Below, one piece after another: positions 53,564 to 61,222 of a stretch of DNA of 61,222 nucleotides; the first letter of the stretch is position 1; each line of letters begins with the position of its first letter. A program made the position numbers and the translations under genes. Source of the stretch: an uncultured Candidatus Competibacteraceae bacterium (GTDB lineage: Bacteria > Pseudomonadota > Gammaproteobacteria > Competibacterales > Competibacteraceae); assembly GCA_903879705.1 (NCBI GenBank), contig CAIRMO010000067.1, forward strand, positions 1 to 61,222, given 5' to 3'. Under the pieces are notes generated by a model, which saw nothing but the letters and a program-made list of their open reading frames with translations, was not told where the DNA came from and searched no databases.

Positions 53564-53995
53564 TCATTCCGGCCACCAGTCCCCGGTTATCTGTTCGACA
53601 ATCAATGGGCAGGTTTTCGGGAATGTGGTCAAGGGCAAGCCGGTTTCACCCGCTGCATTACGCCGGGCGCTTGAATAAATATCAGCCAGTAATTCGTTTA
53701 ATTGTGGGCGCAGGCTGGGGCTGTCTTTAATCTGCCAGGCGATCTGATCGCGTCCATTTTCAATCGAAAGTCTCCAACGGATTCCACGTCGTTCCGGTTG
53801 ATATTGCCACTTGAGTAAATGCATGGCGACATTTAATAAATAGTTGCGTAATGCGCCCTTGTCGCGTCGGCCCATGCTGTCAATTTCCTCAATGAGATGT
53901 TCTACATCCAGTGTTGACAATGCGCCTTTTCGCAGTAAATCGGCCTGCTGCTGTGTCCATTGATAGAAATCGGATTCGTAAGTTGTTGTGGTCAT
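53564..53995 (-). CDS. DUF29 family protein
   Basis: A 143-aa DUF29 protein: YESDFYQWTQQQADLLRKG (about 6-24), LDVEHLIEEIDSMGRRDK (28-45), NYLLNVAMHLLKWQYQPER and SWR-type middle, ending in FPKTCPLIVEQI. It is mostly helical with no known catalytic motif. The ATG overlaps the stop of the Phd-type antitoxin gene by one base (TAATG), the arrangement normally occupied by a toxin. It could be the partner of that antitoxin, but this is inference. Confidence 0.88.
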   Translation of the reverse strand: MTTTTYESDFYQWTQQQADLLRKGALSTLDVEHLIEEIDSMGRRDKGALRNYLLNVAMHLLKWQYQPERRGIRWRLSIENGRDQIAWQIKDSPSLRPQLNELLADIYSSARRNAAGETGLPLTTFPKTCPLIVEQITGDWWPE

Positions 53996-54417
53996 TACGG
54001 CATATACCCCGCAAAATCCTTCAAGTGTTCCTCGTCATCCGAAATGATGGTGATCATGCCTTTCCCCAGCCCAGGCGCCGGACGTTTCGCAAAGCCCTCC
54101 AGTGGCGCATCGAAGTCTGGAGCCATCCAGTGCTGGGTGTCTTTCGCTGTCCCCGGCTGGCAAGGCCAACTCGTCCGGGGTGGCTCAGTTATATATTCCT
54201 CGAAGTCTTTCAGATGCTCGTCGTCATCGGACACAATCTTGATCATGCCGATACAGTTCCCGGCTTTGCGGGGCTGCCGTTTCTTGACGGGTTCGCCCTT
54301 CAACTTGACGACCGGTTGTTGATTCCGGGTAATAATGATTTCCTGGCCCGCTATTACTTGATCGATCAAGTCTTTCAGGCTGATTTGAGTTTCTTCAACG
54401 GTGATGGTCGCTAACAT
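53995..54417 (-). CDS. Phd/YefM-type antitoxin with three tandem tail modules
   Basis: A 140-aa protein. Residues 1-45 form a Phd/YefM-type DNA-binding and dimer domain (TVEETQISLKDLIDQV, EIIITRNQQPVVKLKG). Ordinary relatives are about 75-85 aa and end with one toxin-binding tail of the kind GMITIVADDEEHLKDFEEYM or WMAPDFDAPLEDF. Here I see three tails in a row: MIKIVSDDDEHLKDFEEYI (about 58-76), QHWMAPDFDAPLEGF (about 94-108) and GMITIISDDEEHLKDFAGYM (about 119-138). GGAG lies 8 nt before the ATG. It is followed not by a PIN gene but by DUF29. Confidence 0.85.
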   Translation of the reverse strand: MLATITVEETQISLKDLIDQVIAGQEIIITRNQQPVVKLKGEPVKKRQPRKAGNCIGMIKIVSDDDEHLKDFEEYITEPPRTSWPCQPGTAKDTQHWMAPDFDAPLEGFAKRPAPGLGKGMITIISDDEEHLKDFAGYMP

Positions 54418-54433
54418 GGGGATTTCTCCGTGG

Positions 54434-54868
54434 TTAATGCTTCATATCGAACGGTAAATCACGCATGAGTACCTGAAATCCCATTTGCCGAAAATGCTCG
54501 TCGGTCGTTAATACTTGATAAATCCCTTTCCTCTTCATCACCAGATAAGAAATACAGTCAATTAATCCCCATTCTTTATCGGATCGTTCTCGATATAACC
54601 GCAGAGCTTCTTTGTAAAGTGGTTCGGAGAGTGGAGTAATTTCGACAGTGACATCATTTTCTAGTGCATCGAGCAACTGAATGGCTGCACTGCGATAGCG
54701 AACCTTAGAAAGCGCATTGCCAATTTCCAGGAGAATAGCGCGAGTAGTGACTAGATCAATCTGATTTTCTTCAAGATAACTAGCCAACGCCAAAGCTCGA
54801 TCATGAAAATCATCGGTTTCCGAAATCAACGCAATCGCATAAGCTGTATCGAGGAAAATTTCAGTCAT
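54434..54868 (-). CDS. PIN-domain toxin (VapC-like)
   Basis: A 144-aa predicted endoribonuclease. The PIN acidic residues are in place: EIFLDTAYAIAL (Asp7), LLEIGNALSKVR (Glu near 50), EWGLIDCISYLVM (Asp near 104) and TTDEHFRQMGF (Asp near 122). It is paired with the AF2212-type antitoxin, whose stop overlaps its start by one base (TAATG). Base composition is more AT-rich than in the flanking pglX and pglZ genes, so the pair looks like a later insertion into the BREX operon. Confidence 0.92.
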   Translation of the reverse strand: MTEIFLDTAYAIALISETDDFHDRALALASYLEENQIDLVTTRAILLEIGNALSKVRYRSAAIQLLDALENDVTVEITPLSEPLYKEALRLYRERSDKEWGLIDCISYLVMKRKGIYQVLTTDEHFRQMGFQVLMRDLPFDMKH

Positions 54869-55108: not shown

Positions 55109-58100
55109 TCAGTCGTCGTCTTTGCCGCCGGTAATGGCCTTGGTCTCGGCCAGTAAATCGCCGAACTTGCCGTAGTTCACCTTCACGCCGTCATCGAGAT
55201 CGAGGCTGATTTTCTGGTCGGCGGCGTGTTTCAGCTTTTCCTCGAAGACCGCGAGTTCGGCCTGCTGCTTCTTGAGATCGTCCTGCTCTTTCTGGAGTTG
55301 CTTGCGGTGGCTGGTGCTGGTGGCTTTGACCTTGTCGCCTTCGAGTTGGTCAATGCGGGCGGCGATTCGGCCTTGGAGCGGGAGGACGTATTCGGTACGC
55401 ATCCGGGCGAGTGTGCCGACGTGGTAGCGGTGCAGGTAGACGAGGCATTGGAAGGCGCGTTGTTTGCCGCTGGAGAACAGCCAGTAGATGGGCCGCTTCT
55501 TGTAGGTTTGGAGGTGGTCTTTGTAGAAGTCGGTCAGGAAATACTTTCGCAGGTCTTTGCCGAGCGCTTCCTCGATGAATCGGAGGTTGTCGGTGAGGGG
55601 GGCTTCGCCGAAGGTGGCGCGGAGGAATTCGTGGGTGCGGTGGGTGGCGTCATCCGGGAAGCCCCAGTCGGTTTGCAGCAGGGGAATGATGCCGTCGTCG
55701 TCGGCGGGGAAGGTCGGGTATTGGCTGGGATCGAAGCCTTGATTGCCGCTGTGGGCGTAGATCAGGCCTGGCTGGTCAAGGCAGTAACGGCCCATCATGC
55801 AACCGATGGCGTAGGAGAGGAAGGCGGCGATGTCGCGGCGGGCGTCGGGGCGGGCAAGGGTGATTTGCGCTTCGGGGACTTCGGGCTGCAATTCGCCGTC
55901 GAGGCCGTAGGCGGCGATGAAGAGCCGGTTGTTTTCCGTCTCCAGCTCCTGCATCCGGCGGATGGCGGCGATGCAATGCGCCTCCCAATTCCGCCAGCTC
56001 GCCTCCAGCTTTGCGTCCTTCAACTCCGTCCGTAGCAACGGCAGGTCGCGAAAGTCCCAGCTGGTTTCAAAATCGCACTCGTCCACTTGGGAAAGCTCGA
56101 TGCACTCAGCCGCGATTTTGGTGATTTGTTCGACCGGGACTCTTTCAAAATTGACTACGGGAATGTTGTTTACGTCATCTTTCTGTGTGTTCAGCGATGG
56201 ATTGAGGACTTTCAGTAGCTTTCCAACCAACAACGTATTGAGCAGAGCAAGAATTACAGCACGAAGCTGAGCCTCGGGAAATAACATCGCGCCTTTCGAG
56301 TCAAAAACAGCGCCGTAGTCACTTAGTCGAAACGTAACCATTCCACTTGTGATTCCACCCCAGGTAATACCTGTCCGAAAATACCATTCCTCATTTGCAG
56401 CACGCCAAGGAAGGCGGCTACCAGCAGGATAATGCTGATTCTTAATGTCGTAGCCATCAGCCCGCCAATTGATCACAATTGAACGATTGCCATACCATTT
56501 TTTGAAGCCGCCCCCTTTGTTGTAGGGAAACCAAGTGTACTCTGTCATATTGCCCGAGGATCCAACTCCGAGTCTTGCGCGGTCGACCTCATGCCAGCAC
56601 CGAAGGAATCGTTCATTGTCGCCCGTCTCTACACCACGGCGTGCCTCAGAAAAATCGCCAAGTGGCTTTCCTCCATCAAAGATGCGCAGCATCTTCTCGC
56701 TCAGCCAATATGCAATGGGAGTCCCTGGAATACGTCTGAAGCTTGTCGCGCAGGAGCGATAGAACCAACCGCAATGAGGATTAGCAATAGCCTCCAAAGT
56801 TTTTGGCCCCTGAATCTCACTTCCTCTGAAATCCGATAGTCTGACAAACCCCCCAAGATAGTTTGGTTCTAAGCCATTTTTTAGAGTAAACGTGCAAATT
56901 GGAACTGTGGCCCCATCGAAACCAGAATACTCTAATTGAACCAGAGTAGTGATTGTTGTGTCGTTGATGAGCTTATCCCGCAGCTTTTCATAAGAAGAGA
57001 TGAACATCCAAACGAACGGGGACATGAATCCCATATAGCCGTTAGCAAATGCCAGATTTAGGGAGCGGACAATGAAGGCGGAAAAGAGATCTGATCTGTA
57101 ATCTGCATAGGTGTCCTGAAGAAACCGTTTCAGCGATGTGTTCATACCGCTTGCCCCCATATACGGCGGATTAGCTACGACGACGTGATACCGCTGAGTG
57201 AGCGCCTCGGCTTGTTTGAGTACGCGCAAGACTTTGAGATGCGTCTCACGCAGAAAGAGCAGACCGCCGAGATCCTTCGCCTCAATGGCGCGGCGGGCGT
57301 TGGCGATGGCCGGTTCGTCGAGGCACGGCTGGATAAGCGAGCCGAAGTTCTTCGCCTCCTCGAACTGGTGGAGCAACTTGAGCAGGGGCTGATTGAACAG
57401 GTCGCCCAGCCCGAGGGCGTGGCTGTAGTCGCGCAACTCGTTTTCCGCAAACCGCACGTCGCACAGCTCGATAATGTTTGGCCGGACCAGGTATTCCGGC
57501 TGGAAAAAGCGCCGGGACTTTTCCCGCGCCTTGAAGACCAGGGCCAGCCCGGCAAGCTGCGCGGCGCGGGGGCAAATCTCCAGCCCGTGCAGATTGTGCC
57601 GCAGGATGAGGCCGGGAATCTCGGTCGGCGCGTAGCCTTCCTCCTGGTAGATCAGGGTGAGCAGGTCGAAGGCGTAGGTGAGCATATGCCCGCTGCCCAC
57701 TGCGGGATCGCACAGGCGGATGTCCTCGGGCCGGGTGATCTTGAGAAAGTCGGTCTCGGCTTCGCCCTCGATGTAGTAGGGCATCTGCTCGCGCAGCCGG
57801 GAGCCGGGGCGATTCAGCAGCCAGAGCCGACCCAGCGAGTTTTCGACGAGATAGCGGACGATCCAGTGCGGGGTAAAAAGCTGGGTGACTGCGGGAATGT
57901 CTGCGGTAGGCACCGCGCTCTTGCGGGCCATGACCTGATCCTTCCGCTCGGCGATATAGAACTGATAGAGCCAGCCCAGCACCTCCACGCTTTCGCAATC
58001 TTCCGCATCCAGATTGCTGACCAGCTTGCGAATCAACGAATCGGAATGCAGCAGGTTATCGGGCAGCAGCAGTTCGGTTTCGTCGTCAATCCGCTGAAAC

Positions 58101-58597
58101 AAGAACGGCATGACCCGGTTGAGGACGTTGCATTGGGCCACGAGCAGCAGGCGGTACAACTCAGCTTCTTTATTCCCGTCCAGTTTGAGATCGATGACGG
58201 TTTCGCGTTTCAGGCCCGGCAAATCGACATGCTCGGCGTATTGCAGAATTTCCGGGGTCGGCTTGCCTTCGGGATGGCTCAATACCCGATAGCCATGATC
58301 GAGATAGTCATGCAACTCCATAAACCGGATCGCCACCAGCCGATTGAACCAGGTATACGCCAGCGCCTCCATCGTTGACTCGAAGCCGTGCCGCTGGATA
58401 CGGTCTTCAAGCGCCTTGCGCTTCTGGGCGACGACACGGGGAAACTCCCGGCCCGCGATGATCACCACATCGCCCCGTTCCACCACTGGCTCGATTTTAT
58501 TCGCCGTCAGCCCGTAATAGGCCGCCCGATCCGTCATCGCCTGGATGAAGTCCCGGCGGGCTTGCGGCGCGTAGTTTTTCAGTTGGTTGCGATTCAT
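55109..58597 (-). CDS. pglX: PglX, BREX type 1 adenine-specific DNA methyltransferase
   Basis: An 1162-aa BREX-1 methyltransferase that marks host DNA at a non-palindromic site and is needed for phage exclusion. SAM motif I is RLCDPAVGSGHMLTYAFDLL (near 290), the catalytic NPPY lies in VVVANPPYMGASG (near 478), and the C-terminal region ends with RTEYVLPLQGR and a coiled coil rich in Lys and Gln (about 1085-1135). Full family length, no frameshift seen. It has no clear ribosome site; the bases upstream of its ATG include one copy of a 15-bp direct repeat. Confidence 0.96.
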   Translation of the reverse strand: MNRNQLKNYAPQARRDFIQAMTDRAAYYGLTANKIEPVVERGDVVIIAGREFPRVVAQKRKALEDRIQRHGFESTMEALAYTWFNRLVAIRFMELHDYLDHGYRVLSHPEGKPTPEILQYAEHVDLPGLKRETVIDLKLDGNKEAELYRLLLVAQCNVLNRVMPFLFQRIDDETELLLPDNLLHSDSLIRKLVSNLDAEDCESVEVLGWLYQFYIAERKDQVMARKSAVPTADIPAVTQLFTPHWIVRYLVENSLGRLWLLNRPGSRLREQMPYYIEGEAETDFLKITRPEDIRLCDPAVGSGHMLTYAFDLLTLIYQEEGYAPTEIPGLILRHNLHGLEICPRAAQLAGLALVFKAREKSRRFFQPEYLVRPNIIELCDVRFAENELRDYSHALGLGDLFNQPLLKLLHQFEEAKNFGSLIQPCLDEPAIANARRAIEAKDLGGLLFLRETHLKVLRVLKQAEALTQRYHVVVANPPYMGASGMNTSLKRFLQDTYADYRSDLFSAFIVRSLNLAFANGYMGFMSPFVWMFISSYEKLRDKLINDTTITTLVQLEYSGFDGATVPICTFTLKNGLEPNYLGGFVRLSDFRGSEIQGPKTLEAIANPHCGWFYRSCATSFRRIPGTPIAYWLSEKMLRIFDGGKPLGDFSEARRGVETGDNERFLRCWHEVDRARLGVGSSGNMTEYTWFPYNKGGGFKKWYGNRSIVINWRADGYDIKNQHYPAGSRLPWRAANEEWYFRTGITWGGITSGMVTFRLSDYGAVFDSKGAMLFPEAQLRAVILALLNTLLVGKLLKVLNPSLNTQKDDVNNIPVVNFERVPVEQITKIAAECIELSQVDECDFETSWDFRDLPLLRTELKDAKLEASWRNWEAHCIAAIRRMQELETENNRLFIAAYGLDGELQPEVPEAQITLARPDARRDIAAFLSYAIGCMMGRYCLDQPGLIYAHSGNQGFDPSQYPTFPADDDGIIPLLQTDWGFPDDATHRTHEFLRATFGEAPLTDNLRFIEEALGKDLRKYFLTDFYKDHLQTYKKRPIYWLFSSGKQRAFQCLVYLHRYHVGTLARMRTEYVLPLQGRIAARIDQLEGDKVKATSTSHRKQLQKEQDDLKKQQAELAVFEEKLKHAADQKISLDLDDGVKVNYGKFGDLLAETKAITGGKDDD

Positions 58598-58603
58598 TGG
58601 GAA

Positions 58604-58618
58604 GGTCTGTCAGTAGGT
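58604..58618. repeat. 15-bp direct repeat, copy A
   Basis: GGTCTGTCAGTAGGT just upstream of pglX; an identical copy lies at 59077-59091. The two bracket the vapB / vapC-fragment / 84-bp repeat segment. Confidence 0.8.
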
Positions 58619-58669
58619 GGTGGTGGCGGGTTGAAGGATTATAGGTTTCCCGAATGAATTGTAAATTTT

Positions 58670-58753
58670 TCCCCTCCTTGGATAAGGAGGGGTGGCGCGA
58701 AGCGCCGGGGTGGTTCGAAGCGGCAATTCCACAACTCAGGTCGGATTCCTATA
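58670..58753. repeat. Dispersed palindromic repeat, right copy (84 bp)
   Basis: Identical to bases 58-141. It contains the CCCCTCCTTGGATAAGGAGG hairpin and the GGCGCGAAGCGCC palindrome. Its right end at TCCTATA fuses in frame with a VapC coding sequence, which it truncates. Confidence 0.9.
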
Positions 58754-58816
58754 GATAAAGATATTGGAATCCAGATAAATTTTATGTCCCTGTAAAGCTT
58801 GTCTTAACGACGCCAT
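58736..58816 (-). pseudogene. VapC (PIN) toxin truncated by a repeat
   Basis: The frame starts at ATG 58816, overlapping the end of the vapB-like gene, and reads MASLRQALQGHKIYLDSNIFIY, a PIN-domain N-terminus with the first catalytic Asp (DSN). It then runs into the 84-bp repeat (RNPT, stop). The remaining ~110 residues are missing, so the toxin is dead while its antitoxin gene remains. Confidence 0.8.
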
Positions 58817-59046
58817 GAATCCCGCTCCGCACGGATGAAATCATCAATTTGAGTCGCATTTTCAAAACAGCCCCGCGCCTGACCGATCAACTGAGTCAAT
58901 AATGGCGGATTTTCCCGCTTTTCATGCTTGATTTCATCATCATCCAGCGGCCAGAAAATGGTTTCAATCCGACGATGCTGTAAATCAGCCGGAACTGGGA
59001 TAAAAGCGGGTGCATCTTCATAAACAATACGCGCAGGATTCATCAT
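58804..59046 (-). CDS. VapB-like antitoxin (orphaned)
   Basis: 80 aa, with GGAG 5 nt before the first ATG (a second ATG follows directly). The sequence PARIVYEDAPAFIPVPADLQ and the ending IDDFIRAERDSWRR resemble antitoxins encoded just upstream of PIN toxins, including the overlap of their 3' end with the toxin start. The downstream VapC is truncated, so this gene appears orphaned. Confidence 0.75.
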   Translation of the reverse strand: MMNPARIVYEDAPAFIPVPADLQHRRIETIFWPLDDDEIKHEKRENPPLLTQLIGQARGCFENATQIDDFIRAERDSWRR

Positions 59047-59076: not shown

Positions 59077-59091
59077 GGTCTGTCAGTAGGT
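59077..59091. repeat. 15-bp direct repeat, copy B
   Basis: GGTCTGTCAGTAGGT, identical to 58604-58618. It coincides with the point where the HEPN reading frame is cut. Confidence 0.8.
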
Positions 59092-59142
59092 CAGCGCTGC
59101 CAACAACTGATCGCGGGAACTGGCTAAAAGGGGTTCAATACT
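59082..59142 (-). pseudogene. HEPN-domain gene remnant
   Basis: Starting at an ATG that overlaps the nucleotidyltransferase remnant's last stop (ATGA), the frame reads MSIEPLLASSRDQLLAALTY and then stops. This resembles the N-terminus of HEPN partners of MNT nucleotidyltransferases. The rest of the domain, including the RNase motif, is absent. Confidence 0.5.
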
Positions 59143-59360
59143 CATTGCAGCCGCACTCGTTCAATTCGGTCGATAAAATCCTGTTTTTCGGGCGTCATCA
59201 TGTCCGGGGGTTAATCACGACGACATCAATTTTTTCCTCACAATGGGAAAAAAACCGGACGGCAATCGCCTGTACAGTCTCAAACGCTGGCGCGTCAGTC
59301 AGCAATAGCACGTCGATATCACCGCCACGCCGGTTCGGATCGACTCTTGTATTTTGATCA
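59143..59360 (-). pseudogene. MNT-type nucleotidyltransferase remnant, frameshifted
   Basis: Without a start codon, the minus strand encodes RVDPNRRGGDIDVLLL (the polymerase-beta-like GxxDID motif) through EEKIDVVVINPRT and a stop near 59200. Removing 2 nt there would continue into MTPEKQDFIDRIERVRLQ. So both the N-terminus (with the usual FGSR) and the frame are lost. Together with the HEPN remnant it marks a decayed MNT-HEPN toxin-antitoxin pair between brxC and pglX. No other feature is seen in the 343-bp gap 59047-59389. Confidence 0.65.
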
Positions 59361-59389
59361 TTTTAGTGGCGAGATCAATCTGAGATCAA

Positions 59390-61114
59390 TCAACGAATCT
59401 GCACCCGCTCGTTATTAGCAATCGCCTGCTCCAGCGCCATGCGGAGTACATCAAGAAAGTCATTTACTTCAGCAGACGATTCCAGATAGGCAGTCTGTAT
59501 CAGATCAGCCGGTCTAACGACGCGCTGCTTTTTAACTATAGGTTGATCTTCTTGTATTCCGTGTTCCTTCTGTGTCAGTCCGTGGCGCTCAATCCGTTCA
59601 ATAGCCGCATCAAACGCCTTGACCGCTTCTGCTTCGGCTTGAGCGATGTGGGCCAGACTGCCTTCCTGTTGAACCTGCGCCTTCAACGTCTCCAGCGGTT
59701 GCAGACAGGCAGCCCGCAAGCTGGCATCGCCCTGAGCCTGAGCCATATCCTGATTCAGCGTGGCGATGTGGGTGTCGATTTTGGTCAGCGCCTGAGTCCG
59801 CCGTCCCGACAGCAAAGCCGTATTCACCGCATCGACCGTGCTGATCAGCGCCTCGGCTTCCTTGATCAGTCCATAAGGACTTTTCGCCGACAAAATGTCC
59901 TGCATCCGCCGGAGCGCCGGCCCGGCCCGGTCATCTCGTTCCAGTTCCAGCCGGTTGAGTTGGAAAGCGCTGTGGGCCTTGCGCAGTTTCTCCCACGTCG
60001 GTTTCTGCGAATCGTAAAAATGCTTCAGGTCGTGGTACGAGTCGCCTAGGTCGCGCAGCGCGTTCTTGAGGGTGTTAAACCGCTCAATGAACGGGCGGCT
60101 GTCCTGGTCAGCCAGCAGCGGACTGATCAGCGTCAGCCCTTGGCTGATGTCGTCCTTGCCCGGATAGCTGCCGGTGTCGGCCAACGGCTGATAACCTTGC
60201 AGGGCAATCTGCCAGTCCCGCAGCTTGGTTTGCAGGAAAGTCATCAAGCCGTCTTCGCCGTCCGGCCCCATTCCCGCGAACAGGTCTCTGCCGAGACTGC
60301 GAGCATTTTGGATCGCCTTGGGATCCGCCGTTTCCTTCTTGCGAACGACAATCTTGCGGCGTTTGGCCGGCGTGGTGATGGCGTCATACACCTTGTCGAT
60401 GGGCAACAAAGTGGCATCCATCATCAGGTTGATCTCGCTCAACACGATCAGCCGGGCCACCAGCAACAGCACTTCCTCTTCCGGCCAGCCGTAGGGACGC
60501 AGCGCATACCGCTTTTCCAGCAGGTCGTGCAAAACCACTGGCTGGCTTTTCAGCGAACAGAGTTGGAGATAGCCACGCAGGTCATCGAGGGCTTCCGGGT
60601 TGTTCTCCCCGGTCTGAAACAGCAGGCTCTCTTTGGCAATGTCATTACTGCGGAGAACCGCTTGCACTTCCTTCAGCGGATCAGCAGAAAGACGCTTGAG
60701 GAAGCTCATTTTGCTGAAGGTGTTGTGGATGAGGTACTCCATCGCCTCGGTCAGCGCCGCCAGTGGCGTTGTCGCCTTGAGCTTGAGTGCTTGCCCGGCC
60801 ACGAACGTGTCAGCGGCGGCCAGCATTTCCCCCAACAGGATGGTCAGGCGGTTCCGGCGCTGGCGGTTGTCCTCAGCAGCGTCCCGCAGGATGCGTTGGG
60901 TTGACTCATTCAGCGTGCCGTCGTTTTTGCGGGAGACGTATTTTTCGGTCTGGAGATAGGCGCGCAGTTCCCGGCCCAGCCGCTCGTCATTGCCGAGGCG
61001 AATCAGCACCTGACCGCCCTCCGCGCCGCTGGCGAGGATCGCCTTGCCCTTGTCGATCCACTCGTAATCGTCCGCCAGGGGGGCAGCAATTCCCGGTCTC
61101 TTGAAAAGTTCATT
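59390..61114 (-). pseudogene. brxC: BrxC, C-terminal part (5' truncated)
   Basis: The open frame from 61114 to 59390 encodes about 574 residues of a BREX P-loop protein BrxC. A GTG at 61009 is only an internal candidate start, because homologous-looking sequence (ADDYEWIDKGKAILASG) continues upstream. BrxC proteins are usually about 1,100-1,250 aa with Walker A near the N-terminus; neither Walker motif is in this part. The frame meets TGA at 61115-61117, where the DNA becomes AT-rich. The remaining region is helical with long coiled segments (about 330-480). Downstream gene order (pglX, pglZ, brxL) supports the call. An intact N-terminal half may lie beyond the break. Confidence 0.85.
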
Positions 61115-61222
61115 TCAAACAAGGTATTATGAAAAGTAGTTTTCTGACCTTGAGTTAAGGTTTTAGCGTTTTGGCTCTATACATGACAAAAATTGTAACT
61201 CATTGATTTTAGGTTAAGCCGC
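61100..61222. other. AT-rich sequence breaking brxC, possible insertion-element end
   Basis: From about 61100 to the end the sequence becomes AT-rich and non-BrxC, with stops in all useful frames. It could be the terminal region of an insertion sequence or a recombination junction. I see only one edge, no transposase and no paired inverted repeat, so its identity is open. Confidence 0.5.

Follow-up and report, generated by a model that had tools for sequence, protein, structure and literature searches.

Related elements and systems

Several described elements and loci come close to the one reported here, and they are compared below as the cited papers describe them. RUP of Streptococcus pneumoniae is a 107-bp non-autonomous element that targets TA and whose ends resemble those of IS630-Spn1, the IS630 element resident there, and the Correia/NEMIS elements of Neisseria have TA at their ends, occur in two size forms and yield base-paired transcripts (PMC2229807). 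Sigma-70-like promoters have been reported in Correia elements and other MITEs in a review (PMC10969869). The MITEs of Candidatus Thiomargarita nelsonii carry TATAG at both ends and are mostly intergenic, and such ends have been linked to IS630 (PMC4853749). On the plasmids of P. syringae, two direct copies of MITEPsy2 recombine and thereby delete DNA (PMC6354349). Finally, BREX loci harbour auxiliary PIN, HEPN and HEPN-MNT toxin-like nucleases, which are embedded among the other genes (PMC12839542).

The element that we describe, a MITE of 114 bp, resembles RUP, by description, as a non-autonomous element with a TA target and IS630-type ends; it differs by its pair of GC-rich inner hairpins and by occurring also as a 206-bp double form. 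By description it shares TA ends, two size forms, base-paired transcripts (as predicted by folding) and (predicted) sigma-70-like promoters with Correia/NEMIS; in contrast to these, its parent family could be identified as IS630. TATAG ends are likewise shared, by description, with the Thiomargarita MITEs, for which no parent IS was found. In the account of MITEPsy2, toxin-antitoxin systems select against the deletion, whereas here the toxin is the part that was lost. With respect to the auxiliary BREX nucleases, one embedded module has lost its nuclease here, and another PIN/antitoxin pair is open. The present case, in which a MITE marks the place where vapC was lost, combines known kinds of element and event and is not a new system. 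MITE-bounded loss of a toxin from a defence operon was not found in titles and abstracts among the matches listed, which is no proof of its absence.

A truncated toxin gene within a type 1 BREX operon

The analysed stretch of DNA (the window; 61,222 nucleotides, with its end, position 61222, on the brxC side) contains brxC, brxX, pglZ and brxL together, and the operon is accordingly of the BREX type 1. Reading along the minus strand, one meets the C-terminal portion of brxC, a spacer that contains remnants with broken frames, the VapB-like gene, the initial 22 codons of vapC, the repeat and brxX. The features are:

55109-58597, minus strand: brxX/pglX, BREX-1 adenine methyltransferase, 1162 aa, intact (NF033452, 1379 bits, cut-off 500)
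58604-58618, minus strand: 15-bp direct repeat ACCTACTGACAGACC, copy before brxX (exact search of the genome)
58751-58816, minus strand: remainder of vapC, 22 codons, broken off within the TAT codon of Tyr22 (reading frame)
58804-59046, minus strand: VapB-like antitoxin gene, 80 aa, open (ORF; relatives precede PIN-like ORFs)
59077-59091, minus strand: 15-bp direct repeat ACCTACTGACAGACC, copy before vapB (two exact copies only in the whole genome)
59088-59366, minus strand: frame-broken remnants in the brxC-vapB interval (read in frames)
59390-61009, minus strand: brxC, C-terminal part (NF033441 positions 638-1172 of 1173, 308 bits, cut-off 400)

The BREX-1 methyltransferase model was matched by brxX across its length. 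Beyond brxX, still on the minus strand, there is a PIN protein, an antitoxin-like protein and a DUF29 protein, followed by pglZ and brxL. All three proteins of the brxX-pglZ interval (53564-54868) are open, including the second PIN/antitoxin pair of the operon (53995-54868), and the antitoxin-like member, a DUF2281 protein, scored 58.9 bits with the NCBIfam VapB model, against a cut-off of 60. The remnants upstream of vapB have a motif that possibly points to an MNT/HEPN pair; this name was dropped, as the pieces given to Pfam, one of them also to NCBIfam, yielded no match. The two copies of ACCTACTGACAGACC flank the unit of vapB, vapC stub and MITE, and our guess is that the pair represents a duplication formed as the cassette entered.

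The vapC frame, which runs downwards from 58816, reads MASLRQALQGHKIYLDSNIFIY, followed by RNPT and a stop, and its start overlaps the antitoxin gene at 58804-58816. The stub (23 residues given) did not match PIN models and thus holds no complete PIN domain, and the 80-aa antitoxin had no match in Pfam and NCBIfam. We therefore name the stub VapC on the basis of context: relatives of the antitoxin are directly followed by a PIN-like ORF in 12 of 13 loci, as read from the ORFs, and the two of these ORFs that were put through Pfam were both PF01850. The overlap and these relatives together show the arrangement of VapBC, in which the gene of a PIN toxin lies downstream of the antitoxin gene and overlaps it. 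The 13 loci were recovered in a second scan of the contigs of named genomes, the best relative (50% identical) being found in a Hydrogenophilales MAG; in a Geobacteraceae MAG (L227) the PIN-like ORF after the antitoxin relative is short (81 aa). Within the family the nearest relatives of the antitoxin were 36-42% identical in a five-sequence alignment. Matches were present in four of the 39 family genomes (own genome included, the other three weak) and in one of the 369 class genomes, namely the own genome, and there were none in viral contigs, plasmids and the first scan of named-genome contigs.

The original prediction had vapC cut after 22 residues by a dispersed repeat, with the antitoxin upstream intact. 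Both statements agree with the above, as the 22 codons end at 58751, where the repeat takes over, and the ORF at 58804-59046 is open over its 80 aa. It had also proposed to look among relatives for an intact vapBC at this site. The search was negative throughout, in the 39 genomes of the family and the 369 of the class as well as in viral contigs, plasmids and the two scans of named-genome contigs. Matches to brxX occurred in four other family genomes (G013, G033, G031 and G024). The brxC-brxX junction, which was read in G013 alone, shows the two genes 8 bp apart and without cargo; brxC of G013 is apparently cut on its 5' side. Since the entire cargo is missing there, G013 gives no view of the state before the loss.

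The repeat is a MITE of an IS630-type family

The 114-bp element is a non-autonomous MITE and belongs to an IS630-type family with TA as its target. Its parts are:

58640-58753, no strand assigned: MITE, 114 bp, ends TATAGG ... CCTATA (from copy ends in genome G005 and the own genome)
58640-58665, plus strand: far terminal inverted repeat, variant end TATAGGTTTCCCGAATGAATTGTAAA (end-pattern search)
58666-58753, plus strand: 88-bp stretch, 99% identical to 206-bp copies, the repeat of the original prediction (genome search)
58671-58706, no strand assigned: inner hairpins CCCCTCCTTGGATAAGGAGGGG (58671-58692) and GGCGCGAAGCGCC (58694-58706) (sequence, folding)
58728-58753, minus strand: near terminal inverted repeat TATAGGAATCCGACCTGAGTTGTGGA (identical in 25 of 26 bases to the end that flanks the IS630 ORF on contig C54)

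The inverted ends are diverged, TATAGG versus CCTATA, and lie at a TA; the outer TA is presumably a target duplication of the IS630 type. Of the 84-bp dispersed repeat that had been predicted, the dispersal and the edge at TCCTATA were borne out. The unit is 114 bp, however, with its other edge not at about 58670 but at the TATAGG at 58640, the 84-bp stretch being the part in common with the 206-bp copies.

The 88-bp stretch had 73 matches in the own genome; among the matches listed, at least 24, query included, spanned query positions 1-88 at 94-100% identity, and the remaining ones were partial or represented second arms of the same copies. A second copy of the stretch in the window (positions 54-141) is 99% identical, the window starting within a cut-off 206-bp MITE. 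Both ends of the element were seen in eight copies of G005 (112-113 bp) and in own-genome copies of 113, 133-134 and 205-206 bp, and several G005 matches spanned query positions 1-114. The ends that these copies have in common are of the form TATAGSNWTCC...AGTTGTGGAA. When up to two mismatches were allowed, the end pattern had 88 matches in the genome as against none for the reversed control, in line with many dispersed copies. TA finishes 43 of the 46 ends of the 23 complete own-genome copies scored, and thus stands at both sides of the element, in a set that was collected via TATAG-like patterns and excludes the own-genome copies L021, L030 and L039; six of the 43 ends keep the TA despite a change in the two bases next to it on the inner side. 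Over the family, the 114-bp sequence was matched in 26 of the 39 genomes (own included), in many to the core only. The MITE RNA, taken as the brxX sense strand, folds at -45.5 kcal/mol (z -6.0 against 200 shuffles), and a single sub-threshold Rfam match (E 0.65) was located outside the element.

The parent family was traced via the first-ORF protein of an IS630 element on contig C126, after DDE_3 as a probe had given no match in the own genome. The ORF following one end match on C126 hit the IS630 model (3.6e-10, under its cut-off), and its protein had matches in 11 of the 39 family genomes. All three own-genome matches adjoin an TATAGGAATCCG end; as the query copy had been located through this very end, two of the three are independent. 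The copy on C54 has an end equal to that of the MITE in 25 of 26 bases, so that the MITE has its terminal repeats in common with an IS630 element from its own genome. At all 18 loci read, at least one end was present within four mismatches, using a loose pattern without control. Of the three own-genome copies, two are cut short by the end of their contig and one has decayed. G034 has a complete element, 1112 bp long and bounded by TATAG at either end, and its transposase (341 aa given) matched NF033545 with 154.8 bits (cut-off 100) and DDE_3 at 1.4e-11.

Apart from the window copy itself, the left-end pattern was matched exactly only once (C12); three further matches, with two mismatches each, are ends of 133-134-bp copies. 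A hybrid origin of the window copy, with the end of one subfamily and the body of another, would fit a deletion by recombination but is not proved.

Toxin loss at a second MITE

A similar situation was encountered on contig C92, where a 206-bp copy (G000:C92:59892-60097; L035, L196) lies between a gene of 77 aa and the ATG of an hsdR-like gene (ResIII 6.2e-17; HSDR_N 0.0011, under its cut-off). The same two neighbours are separated by 1.13 kb in G013, and the interval codes for two PIN proteins (4.1e-18 for the one, 1.1e-9 for the other) and contains a further, small gene that is putatively Phd-like by its motif. The 77-aa gene (83% identical between G013 and C92) had no match in Pfam and NCBIfam; it is termed antitoxin-like on account of its position before the first G013 PIN gene, which overlaps its end. 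The MITE junction on C92 corresponds to the TA of codon 3 of this PIN gene, and the two MITE flanks seem to derive from TA sites about 1.1 kb apart. As to the hsdR start in five other relatives, G028 and G030 have CCTATATG without a MITE, and G027, G006 and G016 have no CCTATATG. We consider C92 the best evidence for MITE-bounded toxin loss, suggestive as the single case besides the window; the toxin could also have been lost there before the MITE arrived.

Six of 19 own copies could be matched on both flanks in a comparison with 20 stretches from relatives. For four of these (L198, L200, L202 and L207) there is one relative with just 11-46 bp between the flanks and nothing large was lost, and a clear loss was seen for the C92 copy (L196) only, which means that MITE-linked deletion is not the rule in this genome. 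A clean empty site was absent from the same comparison, and one with a TA duplication was absent among the matches listed in a search with the joined flanks of 16 copies against 39 genomes. The remaining one of the six, an apparent loss of an aquaporin gene on C126 (L197; gene present in G027), was dropped, as its polarity is unclear and the gene stands beside yfiH in none of six other relatives. On C47 an end of the MITE falls on a TA within a parA-like gene that lacks its start (L199, compared with L178 of G027); this case was left out of the tally since its left flank has no counterpart.

How the junction may have arisen

The gap between the element and brxX measures only 42 bp (58598-58639) and contains nothing PIN-like in three frames. 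This is too short for the remainder of vapC, which is therefore absent from the site. The earlier view that the element moves or recombines into coding DNA holds in so far as a repeat of the mobile type cuts vapC, but a simple insertion would require room for the rest of the gene on the far side. It is probable, in our judgement, that an IS630-derived MITE and a deletion associated with it took away the toxin from a module that lies within the BREX-1 operon. In such a sequence of events, vapC and its antitoxin would have been carried as cargo between brxC and brxX, the MITE would have ended up in the Tyr22 codon, and a MITE-bounded deletion would have taken the remaining part of vapC, the outcome being the order antitoxin, toxin stub, MITE and brxX. 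The deletion could have come about by recombination of two co-oriented MITE copies or by aberrant transposition, which are indistinguishable here; the former would also account for the unequal MITE ends. No relative was found that has the undeleted vapBC at the BREX site, so that we infer the deletion; we likewise infer by which mechanism it came about, in which order the events took place and that the TA was duplicated.

A less likely course, to which we would nevertheless give a real chance, is that vapC had already been truncated by ordinary decay and that the MITE landed later at the TA of the broken end, without any MITE-linked deletion. The frame-broken remnants of other genes in the spacer upstream of vapB are consistent with it, as is the lack of a large loss in four of the six copies matched on both flanks, and an ordinary deletion ahead of the MITE is equally possible on C92; it demands, however, that at two independent places, in the window and on C92, the break coincided exactly with the TA at which the MITE sits. 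That the junction is an assembly artefact, in which two MITE copies were joined at their common 88 bp, appears very improbable. Several contigs do end in or at 206-bp copies (e.g. C119, C110, C100, C78 and C49), but the outer order of brxC followed by brxX is the natural one and the order brxC-cargo-brxX agrees with that in G013, which argues against a misjoin at the repeat; moreover, ACCTACTGACAGACC is present on both sides and nowhere else in the genome.

Another possibility, a tentative one based on consensus scoring, concerns why the MITE was retained: its far end might drive brxX after the cargo had split the operon, as a portable promoter of the Correia kind. The predicted site is:

58638-58665, minus strand: predicted outward promoter TTTACA-N16-TATAAT, made up of the MITE end and flanking AT and facing brxX (consensus score 11/12)

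It is of a sigma-70-like type, and the transcription start deduced from it would be about 34 nt from the brxX ATG. Between 58400 and 59500 there are four promoter-like sites versus 1.2 (sd 1.1) in shuffles, the site at the MITE end being the best, and the far end ranks as joint best of 46 ends. A -35-like hexamer at a constant spacing of 16 bp is found across the 46 ends of the 23 copies. Scores of at least 9, at least 10 and 11 were reached by 10, 4 and 2 of these ends, compared with 4.6%, 0.7% and 0.1% of simulated ends in which the TATA was fixed. On the other hand, the reading as a portable promoter is a consensus prediction only, the constantly spaced hexamer may be a transposase-binding sequence, and a clear Shine-Dalgarno sequence was not seen before brxX. 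Furthermore, with two of 46 ends scoring as high, the chance of meeting one here by itself is about 4%.

Taken as it stands, the locus shows how a BREX operon can lose an embedded toxin and keep its core genes open; it gives the MITE family a parent family, IS630, and provides a candidate promoter at brxX that is open to test. It is a rather remote prospect that MITEs repeatedly disarm toxin modules in the phage-defence operons of this genome, with loss of the toxin, retention of the antitoxin and the next defence gene, and a MITE end that can serve as a new promoter for the latter. If true, this would be a route by which BREX and restriction operons lose backup suicide effectors while the core defence remains unbroken, and if the pattern were to hold in more genomes, it would help to explain the patchy occurrence of auxiliary nucleases in defence operons.

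Two minor observations relate to the other MITE copies. The middle of the 206-bp form is inverted in L018 and L026 relative to L019 and others, as if the hairpin halves recombine. In addition, L026 (C30) and L029 (C92:4505-4592) have near-identical right flanks that are offset by about 20 bp, and the TA that is occupied by the MITE on C92 (L029) is uninterrupted on C30.
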